Positions 1,300 to 29,785 of a stretch of DNA of 32,014 nucleotides are shown one piece after another. The position numbers and the translations under genes are program-made. Source of the DNA: an uncultured bacterium. GTDB lineage: Bacteria > Planctomycetota > UBA8108. Positions within the stretch are counted from its first letter, which is position 1. Each line of letters begins with the position of its first letter. Location of the stretch: positions 1 through 32,014 of the forward strand of contig CAJWMA010000008.1 of assembly GCA_913042995.1 (NCBI GenBank), written 5' to 3'. The notes under the pieces were generated by a model. The model made no database searches. It saw only the letters and a list, made by a program, of their open reading frames with translations, and was not told the DNA's origin.

Positions 1300-1951
1300 T
1301 AAAGGCTCGAGTCTCATTTTGAGCCCGGGGCGTAGAAGCTCCGGTTTTACGCTTATAGAGATCCTGATCGTCATGTCGATCATAGGCGTCCTGGCCGGAA
1401 TGGTGCTGATCGCCATGGGCTCGATCCAGAAGGGGGCTAAGGACGAGGCTACAAAGGCTCTTGTCGAGCGGCTGAACCTGTATATCGCCGACTACTATCG
1501 GAAAAAGGGCGCCTTGCCTGAGGATGGACTCGATACGGTGGTGGAGATCAAGGGCCAGGCTCTCAAGGGCTCGGCGGCTCTTTATCAGCAGCTGACCTCC
1601 GATGTGTTTGAGCGAACCTTTATCGCGGGGGAGATGCAGGAGGACAAGCGGGAGCCCGTGGCTCAGTTTGAAAAAGCCGACCTCAGGACGGATGAAGAAG
1701 GCATCACCTACATCATCGATGGGCATGGAGAGCCTATTCACTACGACAACCTGACCGGCAGCAGAAATATCCCCGCGGATGACCCGGCGATCGATCCTGA
1801 CTCCGATTACGCCCGCTGGAGATTTACGGTGGGCTTTGATTCCAATTACGAGATCTGGTCCCTTGGCATGCGGGAAGCCGCTGAAGACGAGGATCTTCGT
1901 GTGGAGGAGGAATCTTCCGAGGAAGAGGAAGAGAGCTACAATGAGTTTTAG
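1277..1951 (+). CDS. Second GspG-like pseudopilin
   Basis: The ATG at 1277 (or the adjacent one at 1280) is preferred over an in-frame ATG at 1202 because it places the prepilin cleavage site (Gly23 before FTLIEILIVMSIIGVLAGM, Glu at +5) after a leader of the same length as in the gene before. The product has 224 residues. After the hydrophobic helix it has an ADYYRKKGALP segment and a GEPIHYDN...YEIWSLG segment, which recall the GspG PxG and YDLYSLG regions, so it is probably a paralogue of the first gene or another PulG-type subunit. It ends in a long acidic tail (EEESSEEEEESYNEF). Its start overlaps the first gene by 23 bases, which suggests translational coupling. Confidence 0.78.
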   Translation: MMTSRTPDKGSSLILSPGRRSSGFTLIEILIVMSIIGVLAGMVLIAMGSIQKGAKDEATKALVERLNLYIADYYRKKGALPEDGLDTVVEIKGQALKGSAALYQQLTSDVFERTFIAGEMQEDKREPVAQFEKADLRTDEEGITYIIDGHGEPIHYDNLTGSRNIPADDPAIDPDSDYARWRFTVGFDSNYEIWSLGMREAAEDEDLRVEEESSEEEEESYNEF

Positions 1952-2813
1952 ACAGCTGAAAAGCGACAACGGGATTCGCTCTCGCGACGGCTTCACGATG
2001 ATTGAATTGATGGTCGTGGTAGCGATCATCATCATGGCCTCGGGAATCATGGGCCCGACGATTGCCGATTTCATGAAGAACCGTCAGCTCGAGGGAGTGA
2101 GAGGCCAGTTTGGTAATATTTTCAATATGGCTCGCCTGCGGGCGGTCAACCAGCGCCGTGATATCAGCGTGGTCTTCTTTCGCGAAGGCCCCCGGGTCTT
2201 TGATGAGCTGCGCAAGGAATTCATCGACTATGATGTCTGGAATCCGGGCAATTCACCTCTAGGCGAGAGCGATCCCACGATGTGGTACGCCCTCGGATTT
2301 GCCAGGGGGACATCGAGTTACAACCCGGAGCATGATAATGCGGGGAAAGCCATCGGCGATGGATTGACCATTCCGCCGTTTGAGAAGTGGGTCTCCAAAG
2401 AGAAGACAACCGCTCCAAAGCCCAAGGGGCGCGCCCGCCGGGGTTCCCGCGCCAGGAGAACAAGCAGCGGGACGACCACCAGGAGCCGCCGCAAGTACAG
2501 GACCACCGGCCTGTTCAAGATTACGTTCAATCGTAACGGCACCCTGGTTTTCAGCGATGGCTGCAGCGACGTCCCCACCTCGGTCTACAATGGGGATAAG
2601 GACGGCAGGCCCAGGACTTCCGATGTGGTCATCCTCCAATTGGATGCGACCCCAGCCTGCTTTATCGATGTGAGGCCAACGGGCCAGATTAGGAGCAAGG
2701 TTGTTCCGCTGGCCGATTTTCCGAGAAAACGCGGAGATGTGAGCACTGTGAACACGTTCGAGGCCAAGGCCAAATCCTCGAGTCGTTCAGGCCGGAGGAA
2801 GTCGAAAAAGTGA
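1941..2813 (+). CDS. GspH-like minor pseudopilin
   Basis: The start at 1941 overlaps the previous gene by 11 bases and follows a GGAAGAG purine run; the frame is open further upstream, but only this start gives a short prepilin leader. The product has 290 residues with the cleavage motif DG/FTMIELMVVVAIIIMASG near residues 17-37. The following FMKNRQLEGVRGQFGNIFNMARLRAVNQ segment is typical of GspH/FimT-type minor pilins, where an N-terminal helix leads to a beta-rich domain. Family members of this kind form or prime the tip of the pseudopilus. The middle (about residues 155-185) is an Arg/Lys/Ser-rich low-complexity insert, and the C-terminus is basic, in contrast to the acidic tails of the first two genes. 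Confidence 0.75.
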   Translation: MSFRQLKSDNGIRSRDGFTMIELMVVVAIIIMASGIMGPTIADFMKNRQLEGVRGQFGNIFNMARLRAVNQRRDISVVFFREGPRVFDELRKEFIDYDVWNPGNSPLGESDPTMWYALGFARGTSSYNPEHDNAGKAIGDGLTIPPFEKWVSKEKTTAPKPKGRARRGSRARRTSSGTTTRSRRKYRTTGLFKITFNRNGTLVFSDGCSDVPTSVYNGDKDGRPRTSDVVILQLDATPACFIDVRPTGQIRSKVVPLADFPRKRGDVSTVNTFEAKAKSSSRSGRRKSKK

Positions 2814-3700
2814 TGTTCAATAAATCGACTGCAGACAGATTCGGCTCTTACGGAGACGGCTTCCGCGAAGCTCGCCAGCATGAGCGGGCGGATGGTTTCA
2901 CCCTGATCGAAATTCTCATCGCCACCTCGATCCTGACTCTTGGCCTGGTGGGGATCCTGGCCCTGTTTCCCGTGGCCATCAAGGCAGGCAGGACGGTGGT
3001 GGAGGCTTCGAATTCGGTGGTGATCGCCCAGTCGGTTGTCGATGCGATTCGAAGTGGAATTCGAAACAGCAAGGGACTTTCGAAGCAGCAGGGCCATGCC
3101 TATTTCATCCTGCGCCACGATGGAGTTACGGATGCGGTCCCCTCGGATCCCAAGCTTCATGACGTCAAGGACGACTATTACATTCTCCTGCCGCGATTCA
3201 AGAGCGGACGGAAGTTCCCGGGGGCCAAGAGGCGGGCCGATTCTCTCAGGCGTGGAAAGCTCTTCCTCTATCCGGAGACCGACAGGAGGGCCAATGGGGG
3301 AGGCAACGCGCTGGCGGCGGATGATGATGGAGATGATTTTCAGAAGGAGGACTCTGACGGAGATGTTCAGCGAACCTTCCGTGTCGAGAAGGTCTACAGG
3401 CTGGGCCAGAAGCTCATTCCCGGCGGCGATCCCAGGGATGCGAATTTTTCTGAGGATTTCCTCCTGGAAAAGCGCGTTCTCAAGGACATGACCATCGAGA
3501 CGCTTCGTCAGTACTCTTTCGCCATCAAGGTCCGAAACAGCTACTACGATGCGGATGCTTCCGAGGACCGCTCCTATCAACCGGCCAATAAGCTTTATCA
3601 TTTCACGGTGTTGATCTACCGGGGGTTCCCCGAGCGCCCGCTGAGAGCGGATGAAACGATCGAACCGATTATGAAGGTGTATTTTGAGGCTGCGATATGA
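2813..3700 (+). CDS. GspI/PilV-like minor pseudopilin
   Basis: The ATG at 2813 shares its A with the TGA of the preceding gene (TGATG); a GTG at 2810 is a possible alternative, with GGAGG at 2794-2798. The product (about 295 residues) has a prepilin motif, ADG/FTLIEILIATSILTLGLVGILALFPVAI, near residue 28. The FTLIEILIATSILTLGLVGILALFP form, with the residues following, is typical of PilV/GspI-type subunits. These are low-abundance subunits expected to sit with GspH, J and K in the pseudopilus tip. The remainder holds a hydrophilic region with a DDDGDDFQKEDSDGD acidic stretch around residues 165-185. Family is assigned from the N-terminus and gene order; the C-terminal part is not recognised. 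Confidence 0.72.
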   Translation: MFNKSTADRFGSYGDGFREARQHERADGFTLIEILIATSILTLGLVGILALFPVAIKAGRTVVEASNSVVIAQSVVDAIRSGIRNSKGLSKQQGHAYFILRHDGVTDAVPSDPKLHDVKDDYYILLPRFKSGRKFPGAKRRADSLRRGKLFLYPETDRRANGGGNALAADDDGDDFQKEDSDGDVQRTFRVEKVYRLGQKLIPGGDPRDANFSEDFLLEKRVLKDMTIETLRQYSFAIKVRNSYYDADASEDRSYQPANKLYHFTVLIYRGFPERPLRADETIEPIMKVYFEAAI

Positions 3701-5082
3701 TGCGTGAAGAGTCAGGTGAAAATATGAGTTCCCGGCCGATGCCGGATCCCAGTCGAAGAGGCGGGCTGGAGCAGGGCTTTACTCTCATCGAGCTGATGGT
3801 CGCCCTCGCCCTCTCGGCTATTCTCTCCATCATGATCATGATGGTGTCGACGAGCGCCCAGGAGACCTACACCAGCACGCTGCAGAAGGTCGAGGTCTAC
3901 AATCGTTTCCGGCTGGCCCTCAATACGGTCAAGAACGATTTCGCGGCCTGGATCCCGACCCAGGAGCTGGAGTTCTATTCCGATGGGAGGGGAGGAGCCG
4001 GCCGGCGGAATTTCCACTTTGAGATGGGTGAGGAAATTGCCGACACCAGGGATGAGTATGGTTTCGGTGTCGTCGATGGCGGGGTGATTAAAGAATACGA
4101 CGAGTTTGCCCACATCATTCAGCGCCACTACGAGAGCCGGGAAAAGCAGCAGTTTATGGATGGAGACAGGTCGGCCAAGGTCCATGATGCCTACCAGGTC
4201 TATTTTCGGGGGATGACCTATATAGAAGGCCAGGTTCGAGAGGCGAACATCGAGTATATGCTTGCAGACCCCGCCAAGCCCTGGAAGAACGGAATCCCCC
4301 AGCCGCCCGACAGCGTCGAGATGGACAAAGTTCGTGACCTTGTGCTCTATAAAATCGTTCGTTTCTTCCGTATCGACAGCAAGCTGGTCACCAACTTCAA
4401 CAAGTATCCCATCACTCGGAGAATCATCGAGGTGGCGACCAACGTTACCGATTTCCGGGTTGAGTATATGAGCGACAACCCTTTCCAGCGAAGCCGCAGG
4501 AAGGGAGCTCCTAAGTTCCGTACGCCTGAAGAGGACTACAAGGATCCCGTAGAGCTCGCCACGCGTCCCAAGAGAACGAAGATCGGCAAGGGCTACATCT
4601 ACACCAAGAAATTCGGCTACGGCAGCGTCAAGATTGCCGAAAAATTTCCTCTGGCGATCGCCCAGACAGCCGTCTGGGGCGACTCCAACGTTGCCCGCAA
4701 CGCCGGCCGCCGGCCGCAGTCTGTCAGGGTCGGTTTTACCGGCAACCCCAACATCAGCTTTGCCGAGCTGGTTCCGGGTGACAGGGTGTACATCTTCACC
4801 GAGGCCGAGCGTGGAGGACAGAAAGCGGGCGGTAATATAGCGGGGCGCCTGGCGGCCTTCCCCGCCGGCGACTATACGGTCAAGACCAACATCAACGGCA
4901 TGCTTGAATTCGTCGAGGATATCGACAGCACCCTGTGGGGGGGGAAAGATCAGCCCGGTGTGCGCTACAAGGCTGCCTACATGCCAGCCGCTCTCAGGTT
5001 GACCATACGAATGGTCGATGACGAGGGTATGAATCCCAAGACTATGCAGCAGGTCGTCTGGCTTCGCAGAAAGTCACGCTGA
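3697..5082 (+). CDS. GspJ/PilW-like minor pseudopilin, unusually long
   Basis: The ATG at 3697 overlaps the previous stop by 4 bases (ATGA). An internal ATG at 3724 with an upstream CAGGTG is possible. The product has 461 residues, about twice the usual GspJ length. The prepilin motif is EQG/FTLIELMVALALSAILSIMIMMV, with Gly27 before the mature Phe. It is followed by YNRFRLALNTVKNDFAAW, like the segment after the helix in GspJ/PilW proteins. A segment reading ATNVTDFRVEYM resembles the GspJ region that describes a beta-strand before the C-terminal part. It is the last gene of the pseudopilin operon and converges on rho with only 15 bases between their ends. No GspK-like gene follows. The function is inferred from the N-terminus and the gene order. 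Confidence 0.72.
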   Translation: MMREESGENMSSRPMPDPSRRGGLEQGFTLIELMVALALSAILSIMIMMVSTSAQETYTSTLQKVEVYNRFRLALNTVKNDFAAWIPTQELEFYSDGRGGAGRRNFHFEMGEEIADTRDEYGFGVVDGGVIKEYDEFAHIIQRHYESREKQQFMDGDRSAKVHDAYQVYFRGMTYIEGQVREANIEYMLADPAKPWKNGIPQPPDSVEMDKVRDLVLYKIVRFFRIDSKLVTNFNKYPITRRIIEVATNVTDFRVEYMSDNPFQRSRRKGAPKFRTPEEDYKDPVELATRPKRTKIGKGYIYTKKFGYGSVKIAEKFPLAIAQTAVWGDSNVARNAGRRPQSVRVGFTGNPNISFAELVPGDRVYIFTEAERGGQKAGGNIAGRLAAFPAGDYTVKTNINGMLEFVEDIDSTLWGGKDQPGVRYKAAYMPAALRLTIRMVDDEGMNPKTMQQVVWLRRKSR

Positions 5083-5097: not shown

Positions 5098-6543
<1,446 letters not shown>

Positions 6544-6550
6544 GTCCTAC

Positions 6551-7156
6551 TCACTCTCTCTCTGTAAAATCGATAGCCAGCAGGCTCTCATAGAGATCTT
6601 CAACCTGCTGACGTGTTTCATCCAGACTGCCTGAATTGTTAATGACGGAATTAGCCAGAATCTTCTTATTGTCTTCGGGGGCCTGGTTTGCCTCTCTGCG
6701 TTTCAGTTCATCAGGAGACCAGCCTCTTACCTTGACCCGGGTTTCTCGAAGCGCCTCGGTTGAGTTCACGAAGAGAATCTCGTCGCAGAAATCGCGGAGG
6801 GTCGAGGAGGCCAGCAGCGGCACATCCAGTACCAGGAACTTTCCGTTGTTGTCTTTGAATTCACTGATCTTCTCTTCAATACGCGCCCTGACCTCGGGGT
6901 GGAGGAGCTTTTCCAGGCGGACAAGCTCCTCTGCATCGGAAAAGACCCGCTCGGCAATCTTCGTTCGGTCGACAGTCCCATCCTCCGAGAGGATCTCATC
7001 TCCCCACCACTGTCGCAGAGTAGACTTCGTATCTTCCCGCTCGATGAGCTCGTGCGCGATCGTGTCCGCATCCAGGGTTTTTGCTCCAAGGTCAGCGAAC
7101 ATGCGGGTCACGGTGCTTTTGCCGGAACCTATACCGCCGAGAATGCCCAGTATCAT
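6551..7156 (-). CDS. coaE: Dephospho-CoA kinase
   Basis: The product (201 residues, the usual length) should phosphorylate the 3' hydroxyl of the ribose of dephospho-CoA, the last step of coenzyme A synthesis in the cytoplasm. Visible motifs are the P-loop GGIGSGKST at residues 7-15, LDADTIAHEL at 28-37 with the paired aspartates 29 and 31, the hydrophobic LVLDVPLL strand around 108-115, and the lid region with RVKVRGW and RREANQ followed by a C-terminal NNSGSLDETRQQVEDL segment typical of CoaE (the family consensus is INNxGxxxxxxxQV). It lies directly upstream of rho with a 7-base gap. Its upstream region is a long gene-poor stretch shared with the divergent gene at 7967. Confidence 0.96.
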   Translation of the reverse strand: MILGILGGIGSGKSTVTRMFADLGAKTLDADTIAHELIEREDTKSTLRQWWGDEILSEDGTVDRTKIAERVFSDAEELVRLEKLLHPEVRARIEEKISEFKDNNGKFLVLDVPLLASSTLRDFCDEILFVNSTEALRETRVKVRGWSPDELKRREANQAPEDNKKILANSVINNSGSLDETRQQVEDLYESLLAIDFTERE

Positions 7157-7811: not shown

Positions 7812-7839
7812 TTGACAGCTATTCATGTACCCATAAAAT
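7812..7839 (+). promoter_or_regulatory. Strong sigma-70-type promoter
   Basis: The -35 box is a perfect TTGACA (7812-7817). After a 16-base spacer comes TAAAAT (7834-7839), five of six bases of the -10 consensus. Transcription should begin near 7846, leaving a leader of about 120 bases before the ATG at 7967. It is the best sigma-70 match I found on the + strand. Confidence 0.75.
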
Positions 7840-7924: not shown

Positions 7925-7966
7925 ATGGGAGCAGTTTCGGATTGTTTGCATGCAGGAGGAACCTCC

Positions 7967-9211
7967 ATGGCCCAAAGAGAAGGCTCTGTTTATTTATGGC
8001 TGTTTGTTGTTGCGATGATGCTGTTTGTGCTCGTTACGGTTCTCTTTGTCATGAAGAACCAGGAACACGAAGAGATGGGCGGCAAGCTCGTGAAGGCGCA
8101 AAAATCTGTGGCTGAGGCCAACGATGCCAACAAGATGCTTGCCAACGAACTGAGGGCGGTCAAGGGACTCATCGTTGGCGTGAATCTCGTCGATAATTAC
8201 GACGACACCAACGACATGATCGAGAACCTGAAGACCAATCAGCTCACGAGTGTTCTCGCCGCGATCAACCAGGCCAACAAGGATCTCAACCGGAAGCCCC
8301 ATCCCGCATTCACCAACCTGCTTGAGCCCTACGCTCTTTATCCGGGTACCTTCAAGGAATACCAGGGTATTCGTGATGTGGCTGTCCAGGAGCGCGACAA
8401 GGCGGACAAAACCTTTACGGCCGCTATCGCGAGTCGTGAAGGAACGATCAAGACACTCACCCAGGATCTGCAGGAGCAGAGATCCCAGGTGGCCGAGGCA
8501 CAGCAGGTCTCTGAGGACTGCGCAAGTAATCACCTCACGGTTGTCGAACGCCTGAAGCAGGAGTTCGAGGATAAAGAGGAAGAGTGGACCGAGAAAGAAC
8601 TGGGCGCCAACCGCCAGTTGCAGCGCAAGGATTCGGAGATCAGCACGCTTCACATTCTTGTGAAGAAGCTGCAGTCGAAAGACCGTCAACTCCTGACCCT
8701 CGCCGATGCCAAGCCTGATGGAAAACTTGTCCATGTGTCCAATGAGTTGGGCAAGGGCTGGGTGGATATCGGCCGCAGGAACCATCTCAAGAATGGCCTT
8801 ATCTTCAGGGTCTATCGTCCGATTAAGGGCGGCAAGAAGATGTTCAAGGGCCGGGTGGAAGTACGCCAGGTCGACGAGATTTCCGCCGAGGTCAGGGTCA
8901 TTGAGCAGGTCGATGCCGAGAGAAATCCGATCGTCGCCGGCGACCTGATCACGAGCCCCTTCTACGATCAGAAGGAAGAGCCGATCTTCGTCTTTGCCGG
9001 CACCAAGCTTACCAGCCAGGAGATGACCGAGGACTTCCTCAGGGCCAAGCTCAGCGGCTACGGTGTGCAGGTGAAGGGTAACGTGGATATCAACACGAGC
9101 TATCTCGTGGCTCTCGAGGACTACGAGAAGACCACCGAGTTCAAGGTGGCGGAACGTCTTGGAGTTCCGATCCTTCGCGAGAAGGAGCTCATGGAGTTTA
9201 TCGGTTACTGA
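7967..9211 (+). CDS. Membrane-anchored coiled-coil protein with C-terminal BRCT-like domain
   Basis: The ATG at 7967 has a perfect AGGAGG 7 bases upstream; an in-frame ATG at 7925 lacks one. The product has 414 residues. One membrane helix spans about 8-29 (YLWLFVVAMMLFVLVTVLFVM). Residues 35-70 and 130-245 are charged, heptad-like and probably coiled coil. Residues 250-335 form a beta-rich part (KGRVEVRQVDEISAEVRV, then PIVAGDLITSPFYD). Residues 338-414 look like a BRCT domain: IFVFAGT, then GVQVKGNVDINTSYLV, then KVAERLGVPILREKELMEFI, lining up with the end of bacterial NAD-dependent DNA ligase. BRCT domains usually bind DNA or phosphopeptides in the cytoplasm. The charge on the two sides of the helix does not settle the orientation. 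It appears monocistronic. The role is unknown; a link between envelope and chromosome is only speculation. Confidence 0.8.
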   Translation: MAQREGSVYLWLFVVAMMLFVLVTVLFVMKNQEHEEMGGKLVKAQKSVAEANDANKMLANELRAVKGLIVGVNLVDNYDDTNDMIENLKTNQLTSVLAAINQANKDLNRKPHPAFTNLLEPYALYPGTFKEYQGIRDVAVQERDKADKTFTAAIASREGTIKTLTQDLQEQRSQVAEAQQVSEDCASNHLTVVERLKQEFEDKEEEWTEKELGANRQLQRKDSEISTLHILVKKLQSKDRQLLTLADAKPDGKLVHVSNELGKGWVDIGRRNHLKNGLIFRVYRPIKGGKKMFKGRVEVRQVDEISAEVRVIEQVDAERNPIVAGDLITSPFYDQKEEPIFVFAGTKLTSQEMTEDFLRAKLSGYGVQVKGNVDINTSYLVALEDYEKTTEFKVAERLGVPILREKELMEFIGY

Positions 9212-9590: not shown

Positions 9591-10952
9591 ATGCGCGAAG
9601 TCCGCATGACTTTCGGGGAGCATTTAGAGGAACTTCGCAAAAGGATCCTCATCGCTCTTCTCTATGTTGTCGTTGGCGTGGTCGTGGCCGTTTTTTTCGA
9701 GAAGACGCTGATGGAGATTACGCTCCAGCCGCATCAGCGTGCCTTCAGGAACGCCCAGAAGAGCAAGCTGCTCGAGCGTCTCGATACGCAGCTCAAGGAG
9801 CTCCAGGCCCTTGAGGCTTCTCCAGGGGCTCCGGGCGAGGCTGCCCCCGGCTTCAGTCTTACCGATTGGCAGATCCTGTTCAGGGGCGAGGTCAGGCGTC
9901 AGGCCATTATCAGGGAGCTCTCGGAGCCCTTCAGCAATTTTGCTGGCGAGCTCGAACAGCTCCTGCCATCTCTGCCCGAGGCGGAGCGCCTGAGGTTCGA
10001 GGAGTCCTATCGCAGGCAGGGTGAACTCCTCGCCGGAAAGGTCGCGGAGCGTTTTGCGACCCTGGGAGAGCTCGAGCCGGTTTCGGAAATTCCCAGGCGT
10101 TTCAGGGCCCTGGAGGAGAAGTTGAATACCCTGAAAGGGGGGGAGTCGGAAACTGATGATTGGCTCCTCGGCGGCTGGGGCGATGATCTTGATGGTCCGA
10201 TTACCCGCCTGGCGGCCTTTAATGAAATTCTCACACAGCGCAAGGAGGAGGTCCGCGCCAGCACCGCTACGGTAGAGGCTCTCGAACAGAGCAGCCGCGA
10301 CTCCACCATCAAAGCGGATTTTCTCGAGGCGCTGCGAGGATTTGACGAGATTGTCGAGGGCATGCAGGCTACCGAGGAGGCTCGCATCATGGTGATCTCC
10401 TACCTCGAGCAGTTCTATACGCATCTCAAGGTCGCCATCATCTTCGGCCTGCTGTTGACCTTCCCCCTGGTTCTTTACCAGGGGTGGAAGTTTGTGGGCG
10501 CGGGACTCTATAAGAACGAGCAGCGCTATGTGCTGACCTTCCTCCCGTTCTCGATTGTCCTCTTCGCCATCGGAGCCACCTTCGGCTATCTGATCCTGAT
10601 ACCGACCGCGCTTAAATTCCTGGCGACCTGGGGGGGAGCCGATATCGATCTCGCCTTCACCCTGGGGAATTACATCAGCCTGTTCTTCACGCTGACGCTG
10701 GTGCTCGGCCTTGTCTTCCAGACGCCGCTGGTCATGGTCTTTCTAAACAGGACGGGTATCGTGCCCGTCGACGGCTTCCGTAAGGCTCGTCGAATGGCGG
10801 TCCTGATAGGCTTTATCGTTTCGGCTTTTCTTACCCCTCCGGATCCCTTCAGCCTGCTTCTGATGGCCTGCCCTCTGGTGCTGCTCTACGAGATCGGTAT
10901 CATAGTCTGCCGACTGTTGAATATCGGCAAAAGCAAGGAGGACGAAGATTGA
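9591..10952 (+). CDS. tatC: Sec-independent translocase subunit TatC with a large insert in the first periplasmic loop
   Basis: TatC recognises twin-arginine signal peptides and forms the Tat translocase, which exports folded proteins. The N-terminus FGEHLEELRKRIL (residues 8-20) and first helix (about 18-36) are typical, and the later part matches well: FPLVLYQGWKFVGAGLYKNEQR (291-312, with the conserved Glu310), the later membrane helices, FRKARR (396-401) and FLTPPDPFS (413-421). The family is usually about 250 residues; this one has 453. The excess is in the first periplasmic loop, residues about 37-278, which is mainly charged helix and likely coiled coil. GAGG lies 7-10 bases before the ATG. 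The gene overlaps the next by 4 bases. No TatA/B gene is in the window. Confidence 0.93.
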   Translation: MREVRMTFGEHLEELRKRILIALLYVVVGVVVAVFFEKTLMEITLQPHQRAFRNAQKSKLLERLDTQLKELQALEASPGAPGEAAPGFSLTDWQILFRGEVRRQAIIRELSEPFSNFAGELEQLLPSLPEAERLRFEESYRRQGELLAGKVAERFATLGELEPVSEIPRRFRALEEKLNTLKGGESETDDWLLGGWGDDLDGPITRLAAFNEILTQRKEEVRASTATVEALEQSSRDSTIKADFLEALRGFDEIVEGMQATEEARIMVISYLEQFYTHLKVAIIFGLLLTFPLVLYQGWKFVGAGLYKNEQRYVLTFLPFSIVLFAIGATFGYLILIPTALKFLATWGGADIDLAFTLGNYISLFFTLTLVLGLVFQTPLVMVFLNRTGIVPVDGFRKARRMAVLIGFIVSAFLTPPDPFSLLLMACPLVLLYEIGIIVCRLLNIGKSKEDED

Positions 10953-12004
10953 AAATAGGTATCCTGGGGTTGCCGACAAGCGGAAAGACAACTCTGTTCA
11001 ACCTCCTTACTGAGTTTTATGACGAGCCCGACCATGCTCATGGCGGCAACAAGCCCGTCATGCGCTCGGTCAAGGTGGTTGACCCGCGCCTGGAGAGGCT
11101 GCGGGATGACTACGAGCCGCAGAAATACACTCCCGCCTCACTGCAGTTTCTCGACTTTCCCGCCATGTCGAGTGAGAGCTCCAGGGGAGGTCTTGAGGAT
11201 CTGCTGGCTCCCGCCAGGGAGCTGGAGACCCTGATCGTCGTTCTGAGAGATTTTGATTCTCCTGGAGGGGCTGAATCCGATCCGCAGGGCGACCTTGCCG
11301 AGGTTCTCGGAGAGTTCATTATCGCTGACCTGGTTGTCGTAGAGAAGCGCCTTGAAAAGCTCGAGGAGAGAAGCAGGAAGCCGAACTTCGATGACGATGA
11401 CAGGAGGGAGCAGGCGCTTCTGGGCGAGATCAGTGGACACCTCGAGTCGGAGAAGCCGGTTTCGAGTTTTCCGCTCGATGACATCCAGAGAAAGGCGATC
11501 AGCGGCTTTGGTTTTCTCAGCCTGAAGCCCTATCTGGCCGTGATCAACTCTGGCGAGGGCGGCGGCAATGCCGTGGAGGCAGAGCTCAGCTCGGTGGCAG
11601 GCACGGAGGTGTTGTCCTGCAAGGCGCTCAACGAGCTTGAGATTCTCCAACTGTCGCCGGAGGATCAGGCGATCTTTCTCGAGGAATACGGGATTCAGAG
11701 CTTCAGCCGCGAGCCGATTATCGCGGCGGCCTATCAGACGGCCGGGCGGATCAGCTTTTTTACCGCCGGGGAGAAAGAGGTGCGTGCCTGGACGATCCGT
11801 GATGGCACCGTTGCTGTGGATGCGGCGGGTGAGATCCATACCGATATCGCGCGCGGCTTCATCCGGGCCGAGGTAGTCAGCTACGAAGACTACATTGAAA
11901 ACGATGGCATCAAGGGCGCCAAGGAGAAGGGACAGTTCCGGCTCGAGGGCAAGACCTATGTCATGGCCGATGGGGATATTGTTGAGTTCAGGTTTTCAGT
12001 CTGA
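10949..12004 (+). CDS. Divergent YchF/Obg-type P-loop protein with C-terminal TGS-like domain
   Basis: The start is a TTG overlapping the tatC stop (TTGA), supported by AAGGAGG 7 bases upstream. The product (351 residues, near the usual YchF length of about 360) begins with a P-loop, GLPTSGKTT at 7-15. The C-terminal part, about 265-350 (EVRAWTIRDGTVAVDAAGEIHTDI, ending in VMADGDIVEFRF), matches the TGS/YchF C-terminal domain (formerly DUF933). YchF proteins are ribosome-associated ATPases of the Obg family. Here other motifs are degenerate: the switch II position reads FLDFPAMS instead of DIAGLV, and the base-recognition segment reads KPYLAVINSGE where YchF has KPxxYVxNVxE. Nucleotide preference is therefore open. 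Co-translation with tatC is evident from the overlap; a functional link is unproven. Confidence 0.8.
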   Translation: MKIGILGLPTSGKTTLFNLLTEFYDEPDHAHGGNKPVMRSVKVVDPRLERLRDDYEPQKYTPASLQFLDFPAMSSESSRGGLEDLLAPARELETLIVVLRDFDSPGGAESDPQGDLAEVLGEFIIADLVVVEKRLEKLEERSRKPNFDDDDRREQALLGEISGHLESEKPVSSFPLDDIQRKAISGFGFLSLKPYLAVINSGEGGGNAVEAELSSVAGTEVLSCKALNELEILQLSPEDQAIFLEEYGIQSFSREPIIAAAYQTAGRISFFTAGEKEVRAWTIRDGTVAVDAAGEIHTDIARGFIRAEVVSYEDYIENDGIKGAKEKGQFRLEGKTYVMADGDIVEFRFSV

Positions 12005-26165: not shown

Positions 26166-26242
26166 AAACCTATCTTTTGGGTTTTTTATGCTTTAAGCTT
26201 GTTGATGACAGACAGGGGACAGGGGCGTTTCGAGGTTTTTCT

Positions 26243-29200
26243 ATGCCGGTTAAAAGGCAACTGGTCGTTTCAGGCCGATGCATTCTCTTATTCTGCGCGG
26301 GGTTACTCGTCCCCTGTGTTCTTTGGGCGGGAGTTGTGGAGCCCCTGAACGGCTGGATCTTCACTCCTGACAATCTTGTCGGCGATTCGGTGAGGGCATC
26401 TTTCGGTGACCTTGATGGGAGGATCTTCGGGGGGGCGCGCGTCGAGTCCTCTCCTCCTGCCCTGGTGTTCGATGGAAACGACGACCGGGTGGTCATCGAA
26501 GCGGCCGGTTCATCAGATCTTCCTGTCCGGCAGCTTTCCGTCGAGTCCTGGGTGCGACTGGATTCCTCCACGAGGTGGGGCGGCATCTGCGGCTATATCC
26601 AGGATAACGGCAGCTTTGAGCGGGGCTGGTTGCTGGGCTACAACGACTCTTCCTTCAGCATGGCTCTGGCCACCTCCAATACCCTCACCTACCTGGAAGC
26701 CTCCGACAGCTTTGAGCTGGGAAGCTGGTATCACGTTGTTGGTACCTACAATGGGTCTGAGCTCAAGATCTACGTGAACGGTCAGCTCGAGGGCTCCTCG
26801 CGGTCGCGATCGGGGGATATCGATTACGCAGATGCGAGCCTGGTCGTGGGAGCCTATGTCGATGATAACGAGCTCTGGCCTCTTGAAGGACAGGTTCACG
26901 AGGCGCAGATTTATAACACCGTCCTGAGCCAGGCGGACGCGCGCGAGCGCTATCTTGCCAAGCGTGGACTCTTTGGCGGGGACCTGGTCCCAGGGCCGGA
27001 CCCTGCGGGGGAGACGGGAATCGTCGCTCAATGGACCTTTGACAATGAGCACGTAAACGGCCGCCTTGTGAGCGACCGTGTCGGGAGCTTCGATGGAACG
27101 ATCCAGGGCGAGTATGAGCTGCTTTCCAGTCCGGCGGCCCTTGCGCTTGATGGTTCATCCACCTTCGTTCGGATGGGACTCCCGGGGGGCTCCGCGGCTC
27201 TGCCGCGCAGGGAGCTGACCGCCGAGGCGTGGGTCCAGATCAACGAGGGAACCACCTGGGGAGGGATCCTCGGTTATATGCAGGACAACGGGAATTTTGA
27301 GAGGGGCTGGGTCCTGGGCTACGATGATTCGCATTTCAGCATGGCGTTGTCATCCGGGCAGTTGACCTATCTTGCTGGTGATACGGAGTTCCAGCAGGGT
27401 ACCTGGTACCACGTAGCGGGAACCTATGACGGAGAGACCTTGCGGCTCTACGTGAACGGCCGGCTTGATGCCAGCTCGTCCGCTCAATCCGGAGATATCG
27501 CCTACGCGGACTCTACCTTCGTCGCGGGGGCGTACGAAGATGACAACGAATTCTATCCTCTAGATGGAGCGCTGCATGAGCTCAGACTCTACGATGAGGC
27601 CTTGAGCGAGGCTCGGCTCAGGGAAAAATATGAGTCAGGACGCGAGCGGTTTCCTGTACTCGAACCCGTTCTCATGGGGCCAACGGTGAGGTTTACCTCG
27701 GTTGATACGGCCCTGGTCTCCTGGAAGACAACGGCTCCCTCGCGGTCGGTCGTCGACTTCGGCACAAGCAGGGCTCTTGGCAGGACGGCTCGCGATGAAA
27801 ACCTGGCTGTGGATCACGCGGTCTACCTGGAGGGCCTCGAGCCCGGTACGCCCTATTTCTACCAGGTCAGGAGCCAGGCAGGAGGCCAGGAATCGAGAAC
27901 CCAGGTCTATGAATTTTCGACCGAGTTTAATTTCTCTGTGCCGTCCGCTGAGCGGATCGAGTCGCCGTTTGGCGAGGATGCGGATTCAGCCGTCTACGCC
28001 CAAGCGGCCGAGAGGATCCTTGCTCTCACCGGCATCGAGAGGGGCTATTGTCTCGACCTCGACTGTGGCCGGGGGAGACTTGCCGTAGAGCTGGCGAAGC
28101 GTTCAAAGCTGAGAATCATCGGAGTGAGCCCGGACCGGGAGGAGGTCTCGGCTGGGCGGACGCTCCTGCGGGAGTCGGGGCTCTACGGTTCACGGATCAC
28201 GCTCCATCTGCGGCTGCTTCAGGATCTTCCCTATGCTGAAAAATCGTTTAACCTGATCGTCTCCGACCGGATTGTCCGGGGCTTCCTCCCGCGCGCCGAG
28301 GCGGGTGAGATGTTCCGGCTGCTGAAGCCTTCAGGCGGGGCCGCGGTCTTTGGTCAGCCCCCGGGCGCGCGCAACGATGTAACCCCGGAAACTCTCCGAG
28401 GCTGGCTGGCTGATCTGCCTGTGGCTTCCGAGGAGCTCGAAGCGCCTGGCGCCTGGGCCGCAGTGGTACGGGGCGCCCTCGAGGGCGCCGGTGAGTGGAG
28501 CCATATGTACGGCTCGCCGGACAATTCCGCCACCAGCCGCGATGAGCTGATTGCGCCCGCCAGCATGAGAATCCAATGGTATGGCCGTCCCGGTCCGAGA
28601 GGAATGATTGACCGCCAGCCCCGGCAGCAGTCGCCTCTCTATGTGAATGGCCGGCTCTACAGCCAGGGTAACGACAGGGTCTACGCCCTTGATGCCTACA
28701 ACGGAACGGTGCTCTGGTCCCTCGATGTACCTGGCATGAGGCGTGTCAATATACCCAGGGACACCGGCAATATGTGCGCCGATGCAGATGCCCTGTTCAT
28801 CACGGTCAAGAACGCCTGCTGGCGTCTCGGCGGCCGGACAGGGCAGCTCGAGATGGTCTATCCCGCCGGCGACGGGATCGCCGACAAGACGGCGCATTGG
28901 GGCTATGCCGCGGTGCTGGGTGATCAGCTGGTGGGCACCAGGGTAACGCCCGATTCGAGCTACAGCTCATTCAGCGGACCCGACAAATGGTACGACGAGA
29001 CCTCGGGAGGCTTCGGTACTTCACAGATCATCAGCCGCTCCCTGTTTTCTGTCGCCAGGGAGGATGGGCTCGCTCGCTGGGATCGCGCTGCGGGCGCGAT
29101 CCTCAACTCAACGATAACGATTGGCGGTGGGCGGTTGTATTACATCGAGTCGCGTTCGAACTCGGTATTGAACGCGGGAACGGGTCGAACAGGCTCCTCC

Positions 29201-29785
29201 GATCTATGGCGGAATAATTTTCTCGTGGCCCTGGATGTCGACAGCGGCGATGTGCTCTGGCGCCAGCCGGTTACGCTTCCCTCTTCTCCGGCTCCGGTGG
29301 TGGCCTTCCTGCTCTATTCAGAGGAGAGGCTGATCACCTCCATCGCCAACAGCAGGTATCACGTCACCTGTTATTCGGCGGCCAATGGCAGCCGGCAGTG
29401 GTCGCAGGACCATTCCTGGAATCGCAACCATCATGGAGGCCACATGTATCATCCTGTGGTGGTGGGCGACACGGTCATCGTGGAGCCCCGCGGTTACGAT
29501 CTCTTCAGCGGCGGCTCGGTGTTCAATTCGCTGCCCTCGCGCGGCGGCTGCAGCACGATGAGCGCCGCGGCGCGAACCGTCGTTTACGTCGACTGGGACT
29601 ACGATAACGGCTCCTTCGGCTTCTGGGATGTGGACAGCGGGGCGCGGGTCCAGAAGGCCGGTTCGCGGGGCAGCTGCTGGCTGGGCCTGATCTCGGGCGG
29701 CGGTATGGTCTTCAGTCCTACCTCCAGCTCAGGTTGCGTATGCCGTTACCCGCTACAGACTTCGATAGGCTATTCATCATGGTGA
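26243..29785 (+). CDS. Large exported protein: two LamG-like domains, FN3-like, methyltransferase-like and PQQ-propeller domains
   Basis: The ATG at 26243 follows GAGG by 7 bases and starts a signal peptide (MPVKRQLVVSGRCILLFCAG, then LLVPCVLWA) cut near residue 29; an upstream in-frame ATG at 26177 would disturb it. The 1180-residue product then has two LamG-like jellyroll domains (about 34-235 and 255-460, each with WGGI-GY-QDNG, ERGW-LGY, GTWYHVAGTYDG and YVNG motifs), an FN3/purple-acid-phosphatase-type domain (about 482-560, ALVSWKTTAPSRSVVDFG), a SAM-methyltransferase-like domain (about 585-745, motif I LDLDCGRGRL near 600, then LPYAEKSFNLIVSD) and a PQQ-type beta-propeller (about 750-1180). 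The family recalls large planctomycete propeller proteins of unknown role. Whether the methyltransferase part is active outside the cytoplasm is doubtful. It overlaps the next gene by 7 bases. Confidence 0.85.
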   Translation: MPVKRQLVVSGRCILLFCAGLLVPCVLWAGVVEPLNGWIFTPDNLVGDSVRASFGDLDGRIFGGARVESSPPALVFDGNDDRVVIEAAGSSDLPVRQLSVESWVRLDSSTRWGGICGYIQDNGSFERGWLLGYNDSSFSMALATSNTLTYLEASDSFELGSWYHVVGTYNGSELKIYVNGQLEGSSRSRSGDIDYADASLVVGAYVDDNELWPLEGQVHEAQIYNTVLSQADARERYLAKRGLFGGDLVPGPDPAGETGIVAQWTFDNEHVNGRLVSDRVGSFDGTIQGEYELLSSPAALALDGSSTFVRMGLPGGSAALPRRELTAEAWVQINEGTTWGGILGYMQDNGNFERGWVLGYDDSHFSMALSSGQLTYLAGDTEFQQGTWYHVAGTYDGETLRLYVNGRLDASSSAQSGDIAYADSTFVAGAYEDDNEFYPLDGALHELRLYDEALSEARLREKYESGRERFPVLEPVLMGPTVRFTSVDTALVSWKTTAPSRSVVDFGTSRALGRTARDENLAVDHAVYLEGLEPGTPYFYQVRSQAGGQESRTQVYEFSTEFNFSVPSAERIESPFGEDADSAVYAQAAERILALTGIERGYCLDLDCGRGRLAVELAKRSKLRIIGVSPDREEVSAGRTLLRESGLYGSRITLHLRLLQDLPYAEKSFNLIVSDRIVRGFLPRAEAGEMFRLLKPSGGAAVFGQPPGARNDVTPETLRGWLADLPVASEELEAPGAWAAVVRGALEGAGEWSHMYGSPDNSATSRDELIAPASMRIQWYGRPGPRGMIDRQPRQQSPLYVNGRLYSQGNDRVYALDAYNGTVLWSLDVPGMRRVNIPRDTGNMCADADALFITVKNACWRLGGRTGQLEMVYPAGDGIADKTAHWGYAAVLGDQLVGTRVTPDSSYSSFSGPDKWYDETSGGFGTSQIISRSLFSVAREDGLARWDRAAGAILNSTITIGGGRLYYIESRSNSVLNAGTGRTGSSDLWRNNFLVALDVDSGDVLWRQPVTLPSSPAPVVAFLLYSEERLITSIANSRYHVTCYSAANGSRQWSQDHSWNRNHHGGHMYHPVVVGDTVIVEPRGYDLFSGGSVFNSLPSRGGCSTMSAAARTVVYVDWDYDNGSFGFWDVDSGARVQKAGSRGSCWLGLISGGGMVFSPTSSSGCVCRYPLQTSIGYSSW

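Follow-up and report, generated by a model that had tools for sequence, protein, structure and literature searches.

BRCT domains have, to our knowledge, been described in cytoplasmic or nuclear proteins of DNA replication and repair, and we know of no BRCT domain in either FlgT, which builds the H ring of Vibrio, or TsaP, which carries a LysM domain. Scaffolds of the MreC and GspB kind possess a single N-terminal helix, a helical or extended stalk, and a beta domain situated outside the membrane. The 5' phosphate site of the yeast Rfc1 BRCT domain is formed by Thr166, Gly167, Arg174, and Lys209, and in BRCT domains of this type the 5' phosphate is bound by the Thr-Gly motif together with the conserved Lys (PMC9359705). 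FlgT is a protein of the flagellar H ring (PMC6504787), and TsaP is associated with the PilQ secretin and with peptidoglycan (PMC7545093).

We examined a stretch of 32,014 nucleotides from an uncultured member of the Planctomycetota (the window) containing a gene whose product was initially annotated as a membrane-anchored coiled-coil protein with a BRCT-like C terminus. The protein consists of a single N-terminal membrane helix followed by a helical stalk, a FlgT_C-like domain, and a BRCT domain. The gene, its signals and domains, and its conserved neighbors are as follows.

5098..6543, reverse strand: rho, adjoining coaE (Pfam Rho domains; synteny)
6551..7156, reverse strand: coaE-like gene, conserved divergent neighbor (named from sequence reading; synteny)
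7812..7839, forward strand: sigma-70-like promoter, TTGACA-16-TAAAAT (11/12 consensus matches)
7954..7959, forward strand: ribosome-binding site AGGAGG, 7 nt before the ATG (sequence reading)
7967..9211, forward strand: gene for the membrane-anchored FlgT_C-BRCT protein (414 aa)
7982..8053, forward strand: single membrane helix, residues ~6-29 (hydropathy 2.98 over 19 residues; conserved)
8054..8701, forward strand: helical stalk, residues 30-245 (heptad and composition scan; alignment)
8702..8971, forward strand: FlgT_C/TsaP-like beta domain, residues 246-335 (Foldseek, Pfam in relatives, TsaP profile)
8978..9208, forward strand: BRCT domain, residues 338-414 (Pfam, family profile, AlphaFold, Foldseek)
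9591..10952, forward strand: tatC, 453 aa, conserved downstream neighbor (Pfam TatC; synteny)

Domain architecture of the protein

The protein ends in a genuine BRCT domain, far above chance. Pfam BRCT (PF00533) matched residues 341-411 with 24.8 bits (E 2.6e-5; curated cutoff, 21.3), the isolated domain scored 28.6 bits against the same model, and matches at E<=0.1 were obtained for 31 of 46 diverse family members. The profile of the relatives reached the LigA BRCT in the PDB at 8.6e-9, a value that improved to 3.6e-14 with a wider, more diverse set. When an AlphaFold model of residues 241-414 (pLDDT 92.3) was compared with the PDB by Foldseek, the top match was the single BRCT of Rfc1 (RFC p140; 2ebu, 1.9e-5, rmsd 1.9 A), followed by DnlJ/LigA (9a6z). 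Both profile and structure therefore uphold the assignment of residues 338-414 made in the initial annotation. The LigA BRCT, the best sequence match of solved structure, shares the fold and the pattern FVxxG, G-V, T-Y/F-L/V-V, A-x-x-L/F-G-V, E-L; unlike LigA, however, the protein is membrane anchored and has no ligase domains, and the whole-protein LigA model TIGR00575 gave only 18.4 bits against a cutoff of 444. BRCT sequences were found in two places genome-wide, in this gene and, with a stronger match, on contig C105; this second one is probably a LigA truncated where the contig stops.

Among the remaining features claimed for the protein, the single membrane helix was borne out and is conserved among relatives. 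Coiled coil is likewise present, but not as the some 200 continuous residues first described: the stalk comprises two coiled-coil-like segments (~34-66 and 150-243) around a conserved stretch containing Pro and Gly. The beta domain that separates the stalk from the BRCT domain had been overlooked. Foldseek matched it to FlgT (8z5n, 7.4e-5; 3w1e, 3.5e-4), Pfam FlgT_C (PF16538) was detected in 14 of the 46 diverse members at E<=0.1 (best, 2.2e-7), and the family profile matched TsaP at 1.7e-5; a scan of the window protein itself with PF16538 gave no match. Likeness to MreC and GspB is a matter of analogy, the only profile match being a weak one to MreC (0.071; 46 members).

The annotated start is supported by the alignment of relatives beginning MAQREGS or MAR.QGG. 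The promoter proposed upstream is a good one, its -35 and -10 hexamers being identical in two close relatives, which also keep the AGGAGG. The accompanying leader hairpin, considered as a control element, was rejected: folding of the leader was no better than that of shuffled sequence (z = -0.11), and the hairpin is therefore given no weight.

The BRCT phosphate site

Although Rfc1 and LigA provide the closest structural matches, the family differs from both at the site of phosphate contact. Residue 344 of the window protein is Ala, so that the Thr-Gly motif of Rfc1/LigA-type domains reads Ala-Gly, and the basic residues of the phosphate site known from LigA are replaced. In the closer set of relatives (n = 23), no sequence has Thr or Ser at the Thr position (0/23) and 16 have Ala, while Pro, Glu, Thr, or Asp stands where the conserved Lys would align; in the wider set, Thr or Ser occurs at the former position in 6 of 46 sequences. 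The family thus departs from Rfc1 in having neither the Thr of the motif nor the conserved Lys that binds the 5' phosphate (PMC9359705), and the combination of Thr-Gly and Lys seen in the DNA- or phosphate-binding single BRCT domains of Rfc1, LigA, and PARP1 was not found. By these alignments, the Rfc1-type phosphate- and DNA-contact residues have been lost from the family. The domain of the window protein is, in addition, net acidic (10 K/R versus 14 D/E).

In divergent relatives that we label Planctomycetia-type (L050-L074), the same loop, which follows the first BRCT strand, is a calcium-type DxDxDG or DxDxDGxxD sequence. Strict DxDxDG is found in 12 of the 46 sequences, where shuffling predicts 0.2, and always at the position of the Thr-Gly motif. 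Calcium-type loops are commoner outside the cytoplasm. A structural model of one divergent relative of the DxDxDG type still matched FlgT and DnlJ.

Distribution and gene neighborhood

Of 59 genomes sampled around the window, 53 contained relatives, many with full-length matches. In a sample of 392 Planctomycetota genomes, defined from the record titles of the nearest matches, about 321 (counted by eye) contained a match stronger than 1e-12; weaker hits were mostly LigA BRCT, judged by their position on the profile, and a figure of 390/392 was rejected as inflated by them. An uncharacterized family is therefore common to most of the phylum. Searches for it on plasmids or phages gave no match, and the literature searched, outside which most subscription papers lie, yielded no account of a BRCT protein that is periplasmic or from a planctomycete. 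The domains themselves are known; what is new is their combination, the membrane anchoring, and the phylum-wide loss of the phosphate site.

In several genomes the gene is present twice in tandem (L079, L080, L089, and L090). By sequence reading, one member (L048) has an apparent second BRCT and two (L061 and L073) have none. Short paralogues of ~290-300 aa were also seen, lacking BRCT and made up of the helix, the coiled coil, and the FlgT_C-like domain (L077:295-1161 and L078:331-1233); that of L078 lies two open reading frames (ORFs) upstream of an ORF whose start reads like mreB. A MurC-like ORF in L093 was rejected as a relative, since its match was weak and confined to the BRCT region.

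The gene sits between the divergent coaE-rho pair and tatC. Family members elsewhere are often found beside coaE-rho as well, and tatC is the adjacent downstream gene in ~15 family-level groups. In L080, the family gene and tatC overlap by 4 nt, an arrangement suggestive of translational coupling. Those Planctomycetia-type genomes that were examined with long loci have the family gene apart from tatC; polA adjoins the family gene in some genomes of this type (L082 and L083) and lies beside two family copies in L090. Only LigA-type hits, and no FlgT_C-BRCT protein, were found in the genomes tested from families f47, f69, f78, and f80. Where TatC was read in these genomes (L096, L097, L099, L100, L102, L104, and L105), it has a C-terminal extension of ~200 aa, resembling the TatC-FecR fusion of Kuenenia, of which the FecR domain is predicted to be noncytoplasmic (PMC2881027). 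Absence of the family and extension of TatC may represent a single event in one clade. Genomes of f84, which also lack the family, have TatC without a C-terminal extension.

Some further features of the region were recorded. The window TatC has ~200 extra charged residues, probably helical, between its first membrane helix and the rest, which would place them in the first periplasmic loop; the TatC of L080 (G040, 250 aa) is without them. A YchF-like ORF at 10949-12004 shares its first 4 nt with the end of tatC, and Pfam sees C-terminal YchF and TGS domains in it but reports no GTPase domain. Three pilin-like ORFs in succession, with methylation motifs at their N termini, occupy 1779-5082, and a 1202-aa ORF at 26177-29785 combines laminin-G/concanavalin, purple-acid-phosphatase N-terminal, and SAM methyltransferase domains with PQQ/BamB repeats.

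Topology and candidate roles

The side of the membrane on which the BRCT domain lies was left open in the initial annotation, which considered both a cytoplasmic tether and a periplasmic domain put to another use. Of 63 relatives, 48 carry more positive charge on the N-terminal side of the helix than in the 15 residues after it, 12 show no difference, and 3 show the reverse; the N-terminal tails are short (mean, 1.4 K/R) and the bias is modest, but by the positive-inside rule it favors an N terminus inside and a C terminus in the periplasm. A periplasmic C terminus is favored because of this charge bias at the anchor and because the FlgT_C-like domain is of a type known from envelope structures.

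We consider it fairly probable that the protein is a periplasmic scaffold or strut anchored in the inner membrane, with BRCT reused for protein contacts and a plausible link to Tat. The short N terminus would stay in the cytoplasm and the helix would anchor the protein, while the stalk would probably dimerize and reach into the periplasm, and the distal FlgT_C-like and BRCT domains would make the contacts. A single BRCT of the LigA/Rfc1 type is the probable source of the fold, which, with loss of its phosphate and DNA site, may have become a protein-binding module of the envelope; the Tat translocase, whose tatC gene is often downstream, is a plausible partner. The Planctomycetia-type loci in which the gene is apart from tatC, in some cases beside polA, count against this reading. 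Of the two possibilities raised at the outset, periplasmic reuse thus accords better with the charge bias, the FlgT_C-like domain, and the altered phosphate site. The opposite orientation, with the N terminus outside and the stalk and BRCT inside, holding DNA or a repair factor such as Pol I or ligase, would suit a module that is typically one of DNA repair, a single BRCT closest to the DNA-binding LigA/Rfc1 type, and the occurrence of polA among the divergent neighbors in some genomes. We regard such a tether as unlikely because the Thr-Gly motif is replaced, relatives have a calcium-type loop, the anchor is biased in charge toward an internal N terminus, and the neighboring domain is FlgT_C-like; the loss of the Lys and the acidity of the window domain also count against it.

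A narrower form of the scaffold reading, in which the protein is a planctomycete-specific partner of TatC in the periplasm, either as a subunit or in substrate handling, draws on the constancy of tatC as the downstream neighbor, on the overlap in L080, and on the extended TatC of genomes lacking the family. We are inclined to doubt it: the protein is kept away from tatC in several lineages, the absences may amount to one event, the f84 genomes lack family and extension alike, and an interaction cannot be concluded from neighborhood alone. More improbable still is a ring- or secretin-associated strut of a pilus, secretion, or flagellar machine, in the manner of FlgT or TsaP. The FlgT_C/TsaP-like domain and the pilin-like ORFs upstream in the window are compatible with this role, but, unlike the situation for FlgT and TsaP, no conserved secretin, pilus, or flagellar neighbor was noticed in the loci examined, of whose neighbors a part was scanned.

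Returning to the inner-membrane scaffold, a more far-reaching version of it, an extracytoplasmic BRCT devoid of its phosphate site, bearing DxDxDG in one lineage, and serving throughout the phylum as the protein-binding tip of a Tat-associated strut, is put forward tentatively, as a possibility against which the balance presently leans. If the domain is periplasmic, the BRCT fold would be shown to be fully detachable from nucleic acid. The envelope biology of the Planctomycetota is debated, and the phylum gains a conserved, unstudied, and probable envelope protein that is often encoded beside tatC.
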